Of a stretch of 64,000 nucleotides of DNA, positions 1 to 6,014 are shown one piece after another; within the stretch, counting starts at the first letter, position 1, and every line of letters begins with the position of its first letter. The stretch comes from Colwellia sp. (GTDB lineage Bacteria; Pseudomonadota; Gammaproteobacteria; Enterobacterales; Alteromonadaceae), in the NCBI GenBank assembly GCA_013215385.1, contig JABSOY010000007.1, positions 310,001-374,000 on the forward strand, written 5' to 3'. Under the pieces are notes generated by a model, which worked only from the letters and a program-made list of their open reading frames with translations, was not told the origin of the DNA and searched no databases. A program made the translations under genes and the position numbers.

Positions 1-2043
1 CAACAAAAGGCTTTTGAAAAGCGTGTTGATTATGCCCAAATCGTTTATGGTATTTTTATTGGTATCATTTTATTAATGACAACCTACAACTTGGTTTTAT
101 ATTTTGCGATTAAAGACAAAGTTTACCTAGTCTACATAGGTTACTTACTGTCTGCTTTCATTGTGTTAGCTGGCTTGACAGGTTACGGTTATTTAATTTT
201 TTCTAAACAAGTTCAATATCTGATCCATGAATATTTACTTTTCATAGATTATTTTTTAATCTTTTTCTTATTATTATTCTCGCTCTACTTTCTCCGCTAT
301 GACCAAGTTAAAAATACTATTTATAAGATAGGCATAACATCCAGCATATTATTAATGGCCGTTGCTTTGTTTTCTTTAAGTCTTGATCAAATAACACAAA
401 CGAAGCTTTTCTTCTCTATTCAGCCGGCTTTTTATTTATTTTCGCTGTTTATTATTTTCAGGCGTCTTTCAAAAGACTTTGCTTGGGCCCGATTTTATTT
501 TATTTCTTGGTTACCTTTTCTCGCGGGTGCAGCTATACAACCACTTGTTTTACTGAATTATGTTGATTCAACATTTCTAACGAGAAATGCTTTCTTATTT
601 GCAGTGATGATAGAAGTTACGTTTATGGCTTTTGCTTTAGCTGAACGTATGCGGAGAAATGATCAAGACAGAATTCATGACATCAGTTATCACCCGTTAA
701 CTAAACTACCTCGTAAATTAGTGTTAGAAAGCACCATGAATAACCTACAGCTATTAGGTGAACATAACTTTAGTGTTATGGTGATTAAACCTGAACATAT
801 CGAAAAAATTTCATTATATATTGACGATAAGACCAGTGCTGCCCTATTTACACGATTAAGTCAGCGTTTAGATTCGTTATTCATTTATAATGATGCCATT
901 GTGCCGTTAACGCCGAACAATGAAAAAATTTGTTTCTTAGAGAACAATTGCTTAGCAATCATTATTAATAAAAAAACCAATCAGCAAAACCTGTCAGTAT
1001 TAGTAAAGTCGATCCAACAGTTAGTTGCGGAAACGTTTCAAATTAATGAATTAAAACTGCCTCTTTCTGCTGTTATTGGTATTGCGAACTACCCCGAGCA
1101 TGGCAGTGCAAACTATCTGCTAATAAACAATGCGCTGTTAGCGACTAACGATGCCCAAAATATTTATGGCCGTTGGGGATATTACCAAAGTGAAAAATCA
1201 GAACAAGCGAACCATTTATTAATGCTTGCCGCTGATCTTAAAGAAGCCATTGAACAAAATTTATTAGAAATATATCATCAACCGCAAATAGATTTAAAAA
1301 CCTTACGGGTATGTAGTAGTGAGTGTCTAATACGTTGGGATCATAAATCAGAAGGTTATATTTCACCTGTGCTTTTCATTCCTCTTGCTGAAGATCTTGG
1401 CTTAATTAATCAATTAACGCTATGGGTTATTAAACGTTCGTTAGCACAACATCAACAGATATTAACTGACAATAAATATAATCATATGGTATCAATTAAT
1501 ATCAGTGGTAAAGACATCGCTGACGAGCATTTCTTTAATAAAGCATTAGCCATTATTGAAGAAAGCGGAATACCTGCTGAAAAAATAATTTTTGAATTAA
1601 CCGAGTCAGCTTCGATCACTCACAATCAACAGTCGCTTGACTTAATTAAAAAATTTAGCGAATTAGGCTTTACCATTAGTATTGATGACTTTGGTACAGG
1701 CTATTCATCTATGGAGCAAATTAGTCACTTACCTTTTCAAGAACTTAAAGTTGATAGACAATTTGTTGAAAATGTTAATGATGATCACAAGCGTAAAACG
1801 ATTGCTGAAGCCACGGTAAAAATGGCAAAAGGTTTAGGGTTAGAAGTTGTTGCTGAAGGCATAAATAGTCAAGAAGATGAAGACACGCTGCGCAGTTTTG
1901 GTTGCGATATTGGTCAAGGTTATTATTATGCTAAACCTATGCCTATTGAAAGTTATCTTAAGTGGCTCGAAAAACAAAACAATGGCCGAACACAGAAACG
2001 TGTCGACCTTGAAGGTGAGTTTATCCCCGCAGAAAAAGTCTAA
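1..2043 (+). CDS. 7TM membrane protein with degenerate GGDEF and active-looking EAL domain (5' truncated)
   Basis: The reading frame is open from the first base, so the gene starts upstream of the window; the first ATG at 76 is internal. The visible N-terminus holds several hydrophobic helices to about residue 215 that resemble the 7TMR-DISM sensory module, followed by a GGDEF-like region and an EAL domain. In the GGDEF region the signature is replaced by FLENN, so cyclase activity is unlikely. The EAL domain keeps ECLIR (EAL position), the NIS motif, FELTES, DDFGTGYSS, LKVDR and VVAEG, which are the metal-binding and catalytic positions of c-di-GMP phosphodiesterases. The likely role is an inner-membrane enzyme that hydrolyses c-di-GMP in response to a ligand or partner. 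The missing periplasmic domain hides the signal. It converges on the ABC transporter genes, overlapping the next gene by 4 bases at the 3' ends. Confidence 0.88.
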   Translation, partial: QQKAFEKRVDYAQIVYGIFIGIILLMTTYNLVLYFAIKDKVYLVYIGYLLSAFIVLAGLTGYGYLIFSKQVQYLIHEYLLFIDYFLIFFLLLFSLYFLRYDQVKNTIYKIGITSSILLMAVALFSLSLDQITQTKLFFSIQPAFYLFSLFIIFRRLSKDFAWARFYFISWLPFLAGAAIQPLVLLNYVDSTFLTRNAFLFAVMIEVTFMAFALAERMRRNDQDRIHDISYHPLTKLPRKLVLESTMNNLQLLGEHNFSVMVIKPEHIEKISLYIDDKTSAALFTRLSQRLDSLFIYNDAIVPLTPNNEKICFLENNCLAIIINKKTNQQNLSVLVKSIQQLVAETFQINELKLPLSAVIGIANYPEHGSANYLLINNALLATNDAQNIYGRWGYYQSEKSEQANHLLMLAADLKEAIEQNLLEIYHQPQIDLKTLRVCSSECLIRWDHKSEGYISPVLFIPLAEDLGLINQLTLWVIKRSLAQHQQILTDNKYNHMVSINISGKDIADEHFFNKALAIIEESGIPAEKIIFELTESASITHNQQSLDLIKKFSELGFTISIDDFGTGYSSMEQISHLPFQELKVDRQFVENVNDDHKRKTIAEATVKMAKGLGLEVVAEGINSQEDEDTLRSFGCDIGQGYYYAKPMPIESYLKWLEKQNNGRTQKRVDLEGEFIPAEKV

Positions 2044-2963
2044 AACAGTTGGTTTTCTAACGTTTTACCATTGGTTAATTGTGAGTATTGCCATTTTTGC
2101 TGATGACAAAGTTGTAATATTTGTAAGTCGATTGGAGGCTCGTCTGTTTGAGTTATAGCACTGGTGATCAAGAATTCATTACTTTGGGTTTGTTTGACAC
2201 TCACAACGCTAGAGACATTCTGAACTAACTCCAAAAAGTTATCATACGACTGCTTCATTCTTAATGTTATATACTGTTGAGAGTCTTCACTTTGTAAGTT
2301 TTGATGCTGCTGTAACTGTCCTTTTTCCAGATATAACACTTGGCTACATAAGCGTTCGAGCTCACTTAAATCATGAGAACTTAAAATAAAAGTAATATCT
2401 GATGATAACGAAGCAACAAGCTCACGTACTTCTCTAGCATTTATGGGGTCAAGACCCGCAGTTGCTTCATCTAACATAACAATTTCTGGTGAGCCAATTA
2501 ATGTTTGTGCTATCGCAACCCGTTTACGCATACCATGAGATAACTCGTTGGGTTTTGCTTGTAAAGTATCAGACAAGCCCACTAAGTCTAAAGTACGCTC
2601 GGCTTCTTTTATCGCATCTTTACGGGTAAAACCTTGTAACTGAGCATAGAACTTAAGTTGATGGCTTATGGTAAAACGAGGGTCAAACTGTGCATCTTGT
2701 GGCAATGCAGCTAAGCGACCAAATAGCTTCTCATTGCCGGCTTTTACCCCTGCAATTGAAATACTACCGCTACTAGGCAATAAATAACCACAAAGTAAAC
2801 TAAATAATGTTGTTTTTCCTGCACCGTTTGGCCCTACTAAGGCAATGGGCTGTCCTTTGTCTAACGAGAAAGAAATATTATTAAGTGCTAGGTGATCACC
2901 AAATGATTTTGAAAGGTTTTCAACATGAATTAACGAGCTAGAATTTTGTGGAGTAAAATTCAT
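2040..2963 (-). CDS. ABC transporter ATP-binding protein (NosF/CcmA-like)
   Basis: This is an ABC ATPase of 307 residues. Walker A is GPNGAGKTT near residue 44, the signature is LSHGMRKRVAIAQ, Walker B is IVMLDEATAGLDP, and the switch histidine lies in LSSHDLSELE. The N-terminal ABC domain is followed by about 80 residues of accessory tail. It resembles the ATPases of ABC-2 exporters such as NosF. Its start codon overlaps the stop of the upstream permease gene as ATGA, so the two are translationally coupled and almost certainly form one transporter. No nosD, nosL or nosZ is visible, so the substrate is unknown. Confidence 0.9.
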   Translation of the reverse strand: MNFTPQNSSSLIHVENLSKSFGDHLALNNISFSLDKGQPIALVGPNGAGKTTLFSLLCGYLLPSSGSISIAGVKAGNEKLFGRLAALPQDAQFDPRFTISHQLKFYAQLQGFTRKDAIKEAERTLDLVGLSDTLQAKPNELSHGMRKRVAIAQTLIGSPEIVMLDEATAGLDPINAREVRELVASLSSDITFILSSHDLSELERLCSQVLYLEKGQLQQHQNLQSEDSQQYITLRMKQSYDNFLELVQNVSSVVSVKQTQSNEFLITSAITQTDEPPIDLQILQLCHQQKWQYSQLTNGKTLENQLF

Positions 2964-3772
2964 AATGACGCCCTCTTTAATAATTTATCTGCTGCAAATA
3001 ATAGAATCACACTTTGTACTAAAGGTATAAGGTAATGCATAAAATCAAGATTCTGTAATGAAACTACGCGACTGATTTGTGTCCCAGGAAAAATATAATT
3101 AAGAAATTCGCCACTATTAAATTGCAACTGAATATAACCTATAAGTAAGGCGCCCACAGTATAAAATAAGATGCTCATCACAATGCTCATTTTAGCGGAA
3201 GATAATAGACTATTTAAAAATGACATTAAGGCGATAAAGGGTGTGATGATAATGATCAGTTCTAAAAAGAGTACCGCCGCCTGCTTTATTGAAGGGATAA
3301 ATAAAGCAGCCTCTCGCATTGTGGCCAGTACAACACATGCCACTAAAGTTAAAAAAATCAAAATCGCAATAATAATAAATTGTCCTAAAAATCGGCCAAG
3401 TAATATTTCACTGCGTGTTGCGCGTAAAGTAATAAATCTAAGCGTGCCACGCGCTTTATCTGAGCAGGTCTGATCGCTAGCCGCAAACAAAGTAAACAGC
3501 GGAAAAGAATAAACGGCAACCAGCCAATATATAGAAAACTCAGCGACCGGCCATTCAAGTAAGGCACTTAAACCTAGCGCACCAAACAAAGTAGTAGCGA
3601 CCATTTTAAAGCCATCAGAAAAAATAATTTCTGTTGCAGAACTGATCATATAATACAGAAGAACAAACCAAACTGCACAAAACGTAGCTAAAGCAATTAA
3701 GCCATTTTTAGTTTTAAAAATACGAATAAGTTCGAATTGAGTGAGAATAGATAACCGCTGAATATTTATCAA
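2960..3772 (-). CDS. ABC-2 type permease, partner of the adjacent ATPase
   Basis: The protein has 270 residues and about six hydrophobic segments. The cytoplasmic stretch with KARGTLRFITLRATRSEILLG is typical of ABC-2 permeases of the NosY/YhaP kind, which export small molecules or act on membrane and envelope components. It is the first gene of a two-gene leftward operon and ends in the ATGA that starts the ATPase. It is divergent from the AdoMetDC gene, and only about 100 bases separate the two probable starts, so their promoters must overlap. The substrate cannot be read from sequence. Confidence 0.85.
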   Translation of the reverse strand: MINIQRLSILTQFELIRIFKTKNGLIALATFCAVWFVLLYYMISSATEIIFSDGFKMVATTLFGALGLSALLEWPVAEFSIYWLVAVYSFPLFTLFAASDQTCSDKARGTLRFITLRATRSEILLGRFLGQFIIIAILIFLTLVACVVLATMREAALFIPSIKQAAVLFLELIIIITPFIALMSFLNSLLSSAKMSIVMSILFYTVGALLIGYIQLQFNSGEFLNYIFPGTQISRVVSLQNLDFMHYLIPLVQSVILLFAADKLLKRASL

Positions 3773-3874
3773 ATGTAAGCCTAGTTGTTATTTTTTCAAT
3801 ACCTTAGTCCGAGAATGAATAAATTGCGAGTGTTATTTTACCTTAAACAGGTACAATATCACTTGAAGATATCA

Positions 3875-4858
3875 ATGATGAAAAAGGATGACGGGTTGTT
3901 TTTTGAAGGTTCAGAAAAAAAAGCGCAAATAATCATTAATGCAGAGAAACTGTCTTTATTAACTGACATTGATAATAATTTTTGGGAAGCACTGGTTAAG
4001 AGCTGTGGCGCAAAAATACTGTCGAGCATGACTAATAACAGCTGCAAAGCCTTGTTATTATCTGAGTCTAGTTTATTTATTTGGCATCATAAATTACTGA
4101 TCATTACCTGTGGCACATCACAACTAGTTAAAGCTATTGAGTTTTTCATTGATAGTTACCCTATTAATACTATTAAGCAGATATCATACCAGCGCAAAAA
4201 CGAATACTTTTCTCATGCCCAGCCAAGTTGTTTTTCGCAAGATGTAAAAACGTTACGGCAATATATCTCAGGTAAGGCTTATCGTTTTGGCGACTTAGAT
4301 TCACATCACAATTACCTGTTTCACCAAGACAATAACTATCAAACTAACATTAACGATAAAAGTTATGAGATTGTTGCTTACCATATTAGTGAAGCCGCCA
4401 GTAAAATATTGACCGATACTAACTTAACCGCGTTAAATATACGCAATATGTTTAATATTGATAAGTTGTTTGCTCACTTCGATATCGATGATCATGTATT
4501 CCACCCATTTGGCTATTCCCTTAATGGTATTCATAATGAGCAATTTTTTACCATTCATATTACGCCACAAGCAGAGAGTAGTTATATCAGTATTAGTGCG
4601 AACTTTGATCTTATCAGCTTATTACCGCACTTAATCACCATATTAGCGCCAACCACTATTGATATTTTAACGAGTAATGAATTAAATTTTGAAGAGAAAA
4701 TAAAAAACAAATTACCCAAGCAATTTATTTGTACAAGTTTAGTTAAAGCGTCATTGAGTATTGGAGAAAAAATTGTATTTTCAAGTTATTCCCAAAACAC
4801 TCGACACAGTTGTGATGCAATAAATTTGAAGATGTACAATGAAGTTCATAGTTTGTAG
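3875..4858 (+). CDS. Eukaryotic-class S-adenosylmethionine decarboxylase proenzyme
   Basis: AdoMetDC makes decarboxylated AdoMet, the aminopropyl donor for spermidine synthesis. Most bacteria have the short SpeD class; this protein follows the plan of eukaryotic AMD1. Visible matches are FFEGSEK (human FFEGTEK, catalytic Glu8 and Glu11), LSESS (human Glu67-Ser68, the self-cleavage site that makes the pyruvoyl group), TCGT (Cys82), GYSLNG (Ser229) and TIHITP (His243). The length from ATG 3875 is 327 residues against 334 in human. I chose this start because FFEG then sits near the N-terminus as in the family; the frame is open from an upstream ATG at 3785. Oddities are Gln where human has Glu247, a substrate-ribose contact, Phe in place of Cys226, and no clear match to the putrescine-site Asp174. 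No speE is nearby. Function inferred; family assignment is firm. Confidence 0.88.
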   Translation: MMKKDDGLFFEGSEKKAQIIINAEKLSLLTDIDNNFWEALVKSCGAKILSSMTNNSCKALLLSESSLFIWHHKLLIITCGTSQLVKAIEFFIDSYPINTIKQISYQRKNEYFSHAQPSCFSQDVKTLRQYISGKAYRFGDLDSHHNYLFHQDNNYQTNINDKSYEIVAYHISEAASKILTDTNLTALNIRNMFNIDKLFAHFDIDDHVFHPFGYSLNGIHNEQFFTIHITPQAESSYISISANFDLISLLPHLITILAPTTIDILTSNELNFEEKIKNKLPKQFICTSLVKASLSIGEKIVFSSYSQNTRHSCDAINLKMYNEVHSL

Positions 4859-4961: not shown

Positions 4962-6014
4962 CTATTTTCGACGAGTTATTACCGCATCACTAAGTTGTGC
5001 TAATAAATTCTCGGTATCAGCCCAGCCAATACAGGCATCAGTAATACTTTGCCCATAGGTTTCGACTTTGCCATCAATTAGATCCTGGCGCCCTTCAACT
5101 AAGTGACTCTCTACCATGACGCCAAAAATATTTTCATTACCACTACTAATTTGCTGACAAACATCTTCGCAAACTAACATTTGGTTCTCGAATTTTTTAC
5201 TACTGTTAGCATGACTAAAATCGATCATTATCTTGGTATTAAGTGATGATTTATTTAACTGTTCGGTAACCGTTTGCACACTGTCAGCATCAAAATTAGT
5301 TGTTTTACCGCCACGTAAAATAATATGACAGTCTTTATTACCTGTTGTTTGAACTATCGCAGAATGTCCATACTTAGTAACCGATAAAAAGTGATGTGAA
5401 GCACTCGCCGCGCCAATAGCATCTATTGCCACTTTGATGGTGCCATCTGTGCCGTTTTTAAAACCAACCGGGCAAGACAAACCTGAAGCTAATTCACGGT
5501 GAACTTGGCTTTCTGTGGTACGAGCACCAATGGCTCCCCAACACATAAAGTCAGCCATATATTGTGGGGTGATCATATCTAAAAACTCACCCGCTGTTGG
5601 CATACCCATATCGTTTAAATCAAGTAATAACTTGCGGCCAATACGTAGGCCGTCATTTAATTTAAAACTGTTATCCATGTAAGGGTCGTTGATAAGACCT
5701 TTCCAACCGACGGTTGTACGCGGTTTTTCAAAATAAACACGCATAACAATTTCAAGAGTATCTTTATATTTTTCACGAAGCTTTACCAAACGCTGACCAT
5801 ATTCTAGTGCTGCATCTACATCATGAATTGAACACGGGCCAATAACCACGAGTAAGCGATCATCTTGGTGATTAAATATTTTGCTAATGGCTGTGCGCGC
5901 TGCAAATACCGACTTAGACGCTTCTTGGGAAGCAGGAAATCGCTCAATAAGGGCGATTGGAGGTAATAATTCTTTAATTTTACTAATACGAACGTCGTCG
6001 GTTTGGTAGAACAT
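4962..6014 (-). CDS. aroG: 3-deoxy-7-phosphoheptulonate synthase (DAHP synthase), AroG type
   Basis: This enzyme condenses phosphoenolpyruvate with erythrose 4-phosphate, the first step of the shikimate pathway. It has 350 residues, the same as E. coli AroG, and is nearly collinear with it. Recognisable blocks are VVIGPCSIHD, MRVYFEKPRTTVGWKG, GARTTESQVHRELASG, PVGFKNGTDG, FSVTKYGHSA-type strand and DFSHANSSK, which contain the metal-binding Cys, His, Glu and Asp and the PEP-binding Arg and Lys. It is a single gene between a bidirectional terminator and a 500-base upstream region. Which aromatic amino acid inhibits it cannot be settled by eye, though the N-terminus (MFYQTDDVRI) is most like the Phe-sensitive form. 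Confidence 0.95.
   Translation of the reverse strand: MFYQTDDVRISKIKELLPPIALIERFPASQEASKSVFAARTAISKIFNHQDDRLLVVIGPCSIHDVDAALEYGQRLVKLREKYKDTLEIVMRVYFEKPRTTVGWKGLINDPYMDNSFKLNDGLRIGRKLLLDLNDMGMPTAGEFLDMITPQYMADFMCWGAIGARTTESQVHRELASGLSCPVGFKNGTDGTIKVAIDAIGAASASHHFLSVTKYGHSAIVQTTGNKDCHIILRGGKTTNFDADSVQTVTEQLNKSSLNTKIMIDFSHANSSKKFENQMLVCEDVCQQISSGNENIFGVMVESHLVEGRQDLIDGKVETYGQSITDACIGWADTENLLAQLSDAVITRRK

Follow-up and report, generated by a model that had tools for sequence, protein, structure and literature searches.

What does a eukaryotic-type AdoMet decarboxylase do in a bacterium whose genome holds no speE ortholog? The question is raised by an ATG-started 327-aa frame in the window, the 64,000-nucleotide stretch analyzed here, which spans positions 310001-374000 of contig C39 in a 5.1 Mb Colwellia genome of 40 contigs (G000). 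Upstream of the ATG, the reading stays open as far as an in-frame TTG at 3785. The predicted protein matches the PF01536 profile over positions 3-342 of 343, scoring 168.4 bits where 22.2 would suffice (E 2.9e-49), and human AdoMetDC 1msv by sequence comparison (E 1.3e-21), and has no match to PF02675, the class 1 SpeD family, at E<=1. It falls short of the cut-off of the NCBIfam equivalog TIGR00535 SAM_DCase (117.1 vs 233.15 bits). An AlphaFold model made from a 26-row alignment has a mean pLDDT of 88.9, and human AdoMetDC tops the Foldseek matches of this model (1msv_B: E 2.7e-26, TM 0.77 by query, 25% identity). The protein thus belongs to the class 2 ('eukaryotic') AdoMet decarboxylases, and its catalytic residues are intact. 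The sequence-only reading had recognized a eukaryote-class enzyme from its motifs, and the profile search places the gene within PF01536; alignment also confirms that FFEGSEK, LSESS, TCGT, GYSLNG and TIHITPQ follow the human order.

The columns of Glu64 and Ser65, the predicted cleavage pair, are invariant in a 26-sequence alignment and again across all 113 bacterial sequences of a larger one, and Cys79, Ser215 and His228 stand at human positions 82, 229 and 243. Human E67, S68, C82, F223, S229 and H243 are unaltered throughout the 113 bacterial class 2 sequences, among which E8D occurs once and F7Y five times. With the cleavage pair and catalytic residues intact, self-cleavage and pyruvoyl formation are expected, as the sequence-only reading had also anticipated; the computed chain masses after cleavage are 7.1 and 30.3 kDa.

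Table 1. Features of the window, in positions counted from its first nucleotide
Feature	Position	Strand	Basis
Class 2 AdoMet decarboxylase proenzyme, 327 aa	3875..4858	+	PF01536, human 1msv, predicted model
Gln18 at human putrescine residue Glu15	3926..3928	+	alignment
Predicted self-cleavage site Glu64-Ser65 (human Glu67-Ser68)	4064..4069	+	1msv alignment
Asp161, equivalent to human Asp174	4355..4357	+	1msv alignment
Ser163 at human putrescine residue Thr176	4361..4363	+	alignment
Gln232 at human Glu247, common to most bacterial relatives	4568..4570	+	alignment
Ser241 at human Glu256	4595..4597	+	alignment
Flanking ABC transporter pair (ATPase 2040-2963; presumed membrane subunit 2960-3772)	2040..3772	-	membrane-subunit frame without Pfam match
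Flanking DAHP synthase gene	4962..6014	-	PF00793, E 3.7e-98

The flanking ABC transporter pair and DAHP synthase gene are thought to lie outside the function of the gene; the ABC neighbors recur in two other genomes (L125 of G005 and L161 of G003). A promoter and terminator scan found no terminator-like sites; it gave 10 promoter-like sites, where shuffled sequences gave 7.1 +/- 2.6. A phage or plasmid carrier was rejected, since tblastn of the gene against 50,697 phage and 72,556 plasmid records gave no match; 17 viral-contig stretches matched a pattern, but none of them was confirmed.

Congeners offer a different arrangement. In G001, G002 and G004 a speE gene overlaps the decarboxylase gene on its 3' side and a divergent agmatinase gene lies 5', while in many wider relatives speA adjoins the agmatinase gene. 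The window gene is related to the genes of these speB / amd-speE operons, often with speA, of congeners and other relatives. The agmatinase gene of the G002 operon (G002:C28:65909-66831, L137) is broken by stops, with amd and speE intact. In Colwellia sp. MB02u-6 (L134, G323) and MB3u-45 (L135, G312), stop-containing fragments of speE lie directly 3' of an intact class 2 decarboxylase gene: in these two genomes the spermidine operon is decaying in place. Among the best 80 of 314 matching stretches, in a collection with one genome per species, the gene occurs in Colwellia, Thalassotalea, Psychrosphaera, Kangiella, Shewanella, Ferrimonas, Marinomonas, relatives of Bacteriovorax and the alphaproteobacterium Kordiimonas, among others. 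Kordiimonas laminariae (L167) carries a complete speB / class 2 amd / speE set. Its SpeE shares 79% identity with the SpeE of a Colwellia congener, a level suggesting that the operon has moved from one class to another.

The genome under study has no such operon: speE is neither adjacent to the decarboxylase gene nor present elsewhere. With a congener's SpeE as the query, the genome yields no ortholog; the only matches are a 568-aa fusion protein at E 1.3e-15 and, weakly, a 303-aa frame at E 3.7e-5. The sequence-only reading had noted the lack of a nearby speE and left the polyamine product open; the absence proves genome-wide, and we agree on the product. The wider search that it had proposed also returns no class 1 SpeD (PF02675, E<=0.001) and no nspC over cut-off. 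Neither speA nor an operon-type agmatinase gene is found in the genome at E<=1e-20; putrescine may still be produced through ornithine decarboxylase. Three frames match PF01564, one of them, the fusion, strongly. The others were rejected as a hidden second SpeE, as they do not look like SpeE: a 300-aa frame with a weak PF01564 match (L030) passes the MFS_SpdSyn cut-off only, and a 258-aa frame (L031) passes none; both could be aminopropyltransferases. At L030 (G000:C13), overlapping frames of 220 and 300 aa both score above cut-off for NF037959 (fused MFS/spermidine synthase), each over a different part of that profile, as if split.

The putrescine pocket of the encoded enzyme is altered. Human Glu15, Asp174 and Thr176 hydrogen-bond putrescine, as listed in Table 3 of PMC3686867, and D174 and E15 are putrescine-site residues in T. 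brucei as well, according to PMC5201418. The human-type pocket E15/D174/T176/E178/E256 reads Q18/D161/S163/E165/S241 in the window protein, so that two of the five residues are kept. E178 and E256 matter for putrescine stimulation of the human enzyme, and PDB entries of the human D174N, E178Q and E256Q mutants have titles that mention putrescine. Altered putrescine regulation is expected from these changes. The sequence-only reading had predicted as much, and the direction of its prediction holds with Glu15, Thr176 and Glu256 changed; the residue it blamed, however, is present. It had found no clear equivalent of Asp174, and the supposed loss was rejected because Asp161 aligns with Asp174 of 1msv.

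Over the bacterial class 2 genes compared, the state of this pocket goes with the presence or absence of speE. In the pooled set of 108 bacterial class 2 genes, residues 15, 174, 176, 178 and 256 are altered in none of the 68 with speE and in 38 of the 40 without it; the two exceptions that keep all five are G026, whose change is E11V, and Shewanella frigidimarina (L181). Positions 15, 174 and 176 taken alone are altered in 0/68 and 36/40. The two genomes with speE fragments, G312 and G323, are counted as speE-less. The pooled count leaves out the human row, L164 (the same genome as G179), L202 (outside the speE search; five residues intact) and the broken copy G212b. In the first set of 75 genomes, scored at 11, 15, 174, 178 and 256, the pocket is altered in none of 41 speE-bearing and 32 of 34 speE-less genomes, with G063 and G220 differing at 176 instead. 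The second set was drawn separately, from the best 80 of the 314 stretches; its 35 named loci, minus L164 and L202, give 0/27 with speE against 5/6 without at 15, 174, 176, 178 and 256. Residues 174-178 of G039 lie in a gappy, uncertain stretch, which reads H/H/S in one alignment and is partly or wholly gaps in others.

Three genomes carry two class 2 genes each: G099 (L081/L112), G194 (L094/L095) and G212 (L092/L123). The copy adjacent to speE is pocket-intact, and the copy away from speE is altered in all three, that of G212 being broken; the second copies G099b and G194b, from speE-bearing genomes, are labelled speE-less on trees and stand outside the 68/40 count. The replacements vary by lineage: Asp174 is replaced by H, N, Y, A, T, E or Q, and Glu256 by Q, A, S or G. 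Some are natural counterparts of laboratory mutants, with the human D174N, E178Q and E256Q changes recurring at the same positions (D174N in G126, G188, G194b and L170; E178Q in G188 and L179; E256Q in six speE-less genomes).

The decarboxylase is accompanied by another candidate partner. Among 98 relatives, PF01536 occurs in 26 genomes and PF02675 in 26, with no genome carrying both, and a full-length fusion of a membrane region with an aminopropyltransferase domain is found in 38 of the 52 AdoMetDC-bearing genomes versus 1 of the 46 without AdoMetDC (G033, 81% complete). The 26 class 2 genomes comprise 9 with speE and the fusion, 4 with speE alone, 13 with the fusion alone and none with neither; at the thresholds used, a single AdoMetDC genome of the 52 has neither (G051, class 1). 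A wider draw from the same family found 66 class 2 genomes among 395. In the wider sets, where the fusion is recognized solely as a SpeE-query match in a fusion-sized frame, such a frame is present in 47 of 49 newly drawn class 2 genomes, the two without it (G119 and G211) bearing speE, and in all six speE-less members of the second set. Altogether, each of the 40 class 2 genomes without speE has a fusion-sized aminopropyltransferase frame.

Two other accounts were rejected. A carboxyspermidine route is not a general replacement, as nspC exceeds its cut-off in just 6 of the first set's 34 speE-less genomes (G050, G126, G068, G069, G092 and G093; G188 is below it) versus 1 of 41 speE-bearing ones; judging from gene content, it could provide a triamine or replace SpeE in those genomes. 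Nor is missing putrescine by itself a sufficient explanation for the altered pocket, because speA is kept over cut-off in 16 of the 34 speE-less genomes (40 of 41 with speE).

In the genome under study, the strong aminopropyltransferase (G000:C37) is a 568-aa fusion of this kind. It lies in a cluster (L124) in which PF03994, PF01564, PF09938 and PF04012 each exceed their cut-offs; its partners are a DUF350 protein, a DUF2170 protein, PspA, a DUF4178-like protein (23.6 bits, under the cut-off of 25) and an ion channel, together with frames of 325 aa (with a lipoprotein-like start) and 108 aa that have no Pfam match. The cluster of the proposed partner, as distinct from the window gene, thus has the composition of a PspA/DUF350/aminopropyltransferase-fusion operon. 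The partnership of decarboxylase and fusion rests on co-occurrence, since the two genes are on different contigs here. In G059 (L069) and G084 (L068), 107-aa class 1-type AdoMetDC frames adjoin the membrane fusion gene, a linked pairing of donor and transferase.

Taken as a whole, the likely explanation is that the window gene encodes an active class 2 enzyme that lost its putrescine pocket and feeds the membrane fusion after loss of the speE operon. The enzyme would cleave itself at Glu64-Ser65, gain the pyruvoyl cofactor and produce decarboxylated AdoMet. The operon is absent from its genome and the decarboxylase appears to have been left behind; we infer loss of speE rather than a later gain elsewhere. 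The decarboxylated AdoMet would go to the 568-aa aminopropyltransferase, which probably transfers aminopropyl groups to an acceptor other than putrescine at or in the membrane. The enzyme, freed from spermidine synthesis, would have lost the putrescine-activation pocket through the changes at Glu15, Thr176 and Glu256. Supply of the fusion by the decarboxylase is the simplest account because the enzyme is intact and under selection, the pocket is altered in 38 of 40 speE-less cases and a fusion-sized frame is present in all 40.

A rather unlikely alternative gives the role of spermidine synthase in this bacterium to the membrane fusion: decarboxylase and fusion would together make spermidine, and the pocket changes would retune regulation only. 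The fusion does retain GGGDG and, at the catalytic Asp, VDLPDP, and it passes NF002956, 'polyamine aminopropyltransferase' (585 bits, cut-off 472). Its VPSFGEWGW stretch, however, resembles IPSYADIWGW of thermospermine synthase 6bq2, whereas spermidine synthases have TYPSG.W. Nor are fusion and speE simply interchangeable, because 9 of the 26 class 2 genomes in the set of 98 relatives carry an ordinary speE as well as the fusion, and the pocket is altered where speE is absent despite the presence of the fusion. The abstract of the 2019 study by Li and co-workers also reportedly describes a fusion that did not complement a speE deletion, which we count against this alternative.

A change of substrate, to ornithine, arginine or a different amino acid, is more doubtful still. 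PMC10407285 documents changes of this kind for homologs of class 1 SpeD, and Gln232 is located at a substrate contact. The sequence-only reading was right that TIHITPQ stands where human AdoMetDC has TIHITPE, and it suggested a possibly altered substrate choice on that ground. The latter does not follow: Gln is found at 247 in 69 of the 75 primary sequences of the first set (the exceptions are G039, G068, G069, G090, G092 and G093) and in 34 of the 35 named loci of the second (the exception is L191), among them enzymes whose genes adjoin speB and an ordinary speE. Being clade-wide, speE operons included, the replacement was rejected as a signal of a new substrate. Further, of the AdoMet contacts listed in PMC3686867, Glu67 and Phe223 are unaltered in 113/113 sequences and Phe7 is Phe or Tyr in 112/113, wherever readable, and the fusion-sized aminopropyltransferase frame in 40 of 40 speE-less cases also argues against a switch.

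It is very improbable that the association between speE and the pocket is a by-product, arising from a handful of large clades and from which residues were chosen. Related genomes are indeed counted many times, and positions 178 and 256, like 11 and 80, were first chosen on general background. However, 15, 174 and 176 are the hydrogen-bond set printed in PMC3686867, and 174, 178 and 256 are the residues mutated in the PDB entries with putrescine titles; the first three separate the genomes 0/68 vs 36/40. The separately drawn second set agrees (0/27 vs 5/6), and the replacements differ among lineages.

The pocket columns were also compared with control columns, the 52 that are invariant in the 68 speE-bearing sequences, a filter that picks pocket and control columns alike. 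The four columns that deviate most in the speE-less sequences are 174 (20), 176 (19), 15 (12) and 256 (11), while 178 deviates in 6 and is matched by other columns; none of 200,000 random five-column sets was as extreme as the observed sum. Two candidate positions were discarded. Glu11 differs in 1 of 34 speE-less sequences and ranks 43 of 72 columns, and the column of human Lys80, which differs in 17 of 34 in the first set, level with 174, changes from Leu to Ile or Val only and varies within the larger speE-bearing set.

On a pooled tree made without the pocket columns, a quick tree with long branches that meet, independent speE contrasts (starred branches) over 200 pairings were 7-0 in 140, 6-0 with a tie in 59 and 5-0 with two ties in one, giving a median p of 0.016 (range 0.016-0.063). 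The first set alone has 5 starred contrasts, 4-0 with one tie or 3-0 with two, and is not significant (median p 0.125), which speaks for a by-product. Parsimony assigns 51 of 51 changes at the five columns to speE-less clades, counting three alignment gaps in G039. The direction of speE change is not settled by parsimony, which places eight changes from presence to absence and six from absence to presence.

Purifying selection on the genes away from speE is indicated by dN/dS values of 0.058-0.129 in seven of eight pairs, two of which, the window gene's own pair G000/G005 and G266/G290, have dS above 1.5; the eighth pair, G109/G141, has a dN/dS of 0.39 at a dS of just 0.01, and two speE-bearing pairs gave 0.036 and 0.096. 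A relic gene, with selection relaxed once spermidine synthesis was lost, is scarcely credible, even with several pocket residues variable and the second copy of G212 broken, against these values, unaltered catalytic residues and change concentrated in the pocket.

The reading in which the decarboxylase supplies the membrane fusion extends to a broader proposal, on which we lean neither way: in marine Gammaproteobacteria the class 2 enzyme might have been left repeatedly after dismantling of the spermidine operon, each time becoming a putrescine-blind, dedicated donor to a membrane transferase tied to a PspA-type envelope system, which would aminopropylate a membrane component and not polyamines. 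The role of AdoMet decarboxylase in bacteria that make no spermidine is reportedly a question raised by Li and co-workers. The pocket change adds independent evolutionary evidence of an enzyme that is kept by selection and would no longer answer to putrescine, and it implicates the DUF350/PspA cluster as the user of the enzyme's product. The state of the allosteric site could serve as a sequence readout that tells AdoMetDCs inside spermidine synthesis from those outside it.

Class 2 enzymes in bacteria are already published. That 2019 abstract is said to describe bacterial class 2 enzymes that are active, genomes that have an MFS/SpdSyn-like fusion and lack spermidine, DUF350 neighbors and a role outside polyamines. 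New here is the association of pocket and speE over 108 bacterial class 2 genes; the literature surveyed makes no mention of a pocket change with speE absence, and the full study by Li et al., outside that survey, may contain it. According to PMC10407285, which cites Li et al. 2019 (Biochem J 476:2579), class 2 AdoMetDC is present in some bacteria and was acquired from a eukaryotic source, and the gene described here is likewise a eukaryotic-type AdoMetDC gene in a bacterium.

Of the systems to which this locus can be compared, the second group of PspA operons in PMC11237479 (for example AAN56744.1), with a spermidine-synthase-like/7TM fusion, DUF350 and a DUF2170-type gene, matches the parts of the G000:C37 cluster. 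The authors propose there that such systems monitor polyamines or the aminopropylation of other substrates. The difference from that operon type is that the decarboxylase gene is absent from the L124 stretch and the proposed supplier is an unlinked class 2 gene. Human AdoMetDC (1msv, 1jl0, 3ep3-3epb) shares with the window protein the fold, the cleavage motif and Cys82, Ser229, His243, Phe7, Phe223, Asp174 and Glu178, whereas Glu247 is replaced by Gln, Glu15 by Gln, Thr176 by Ser, Glu256 by Ser and Lys80 by Ile. Plant AdoMetDC (potato, 1mhm) is not stimulated by putrescine and the site is absent, as stated in the introduction of PMC3686867, so a pocket-less enzyme can be active. Plants keep spermidine synthase, whereas here the change of the pocket accompanies the absence of speE.
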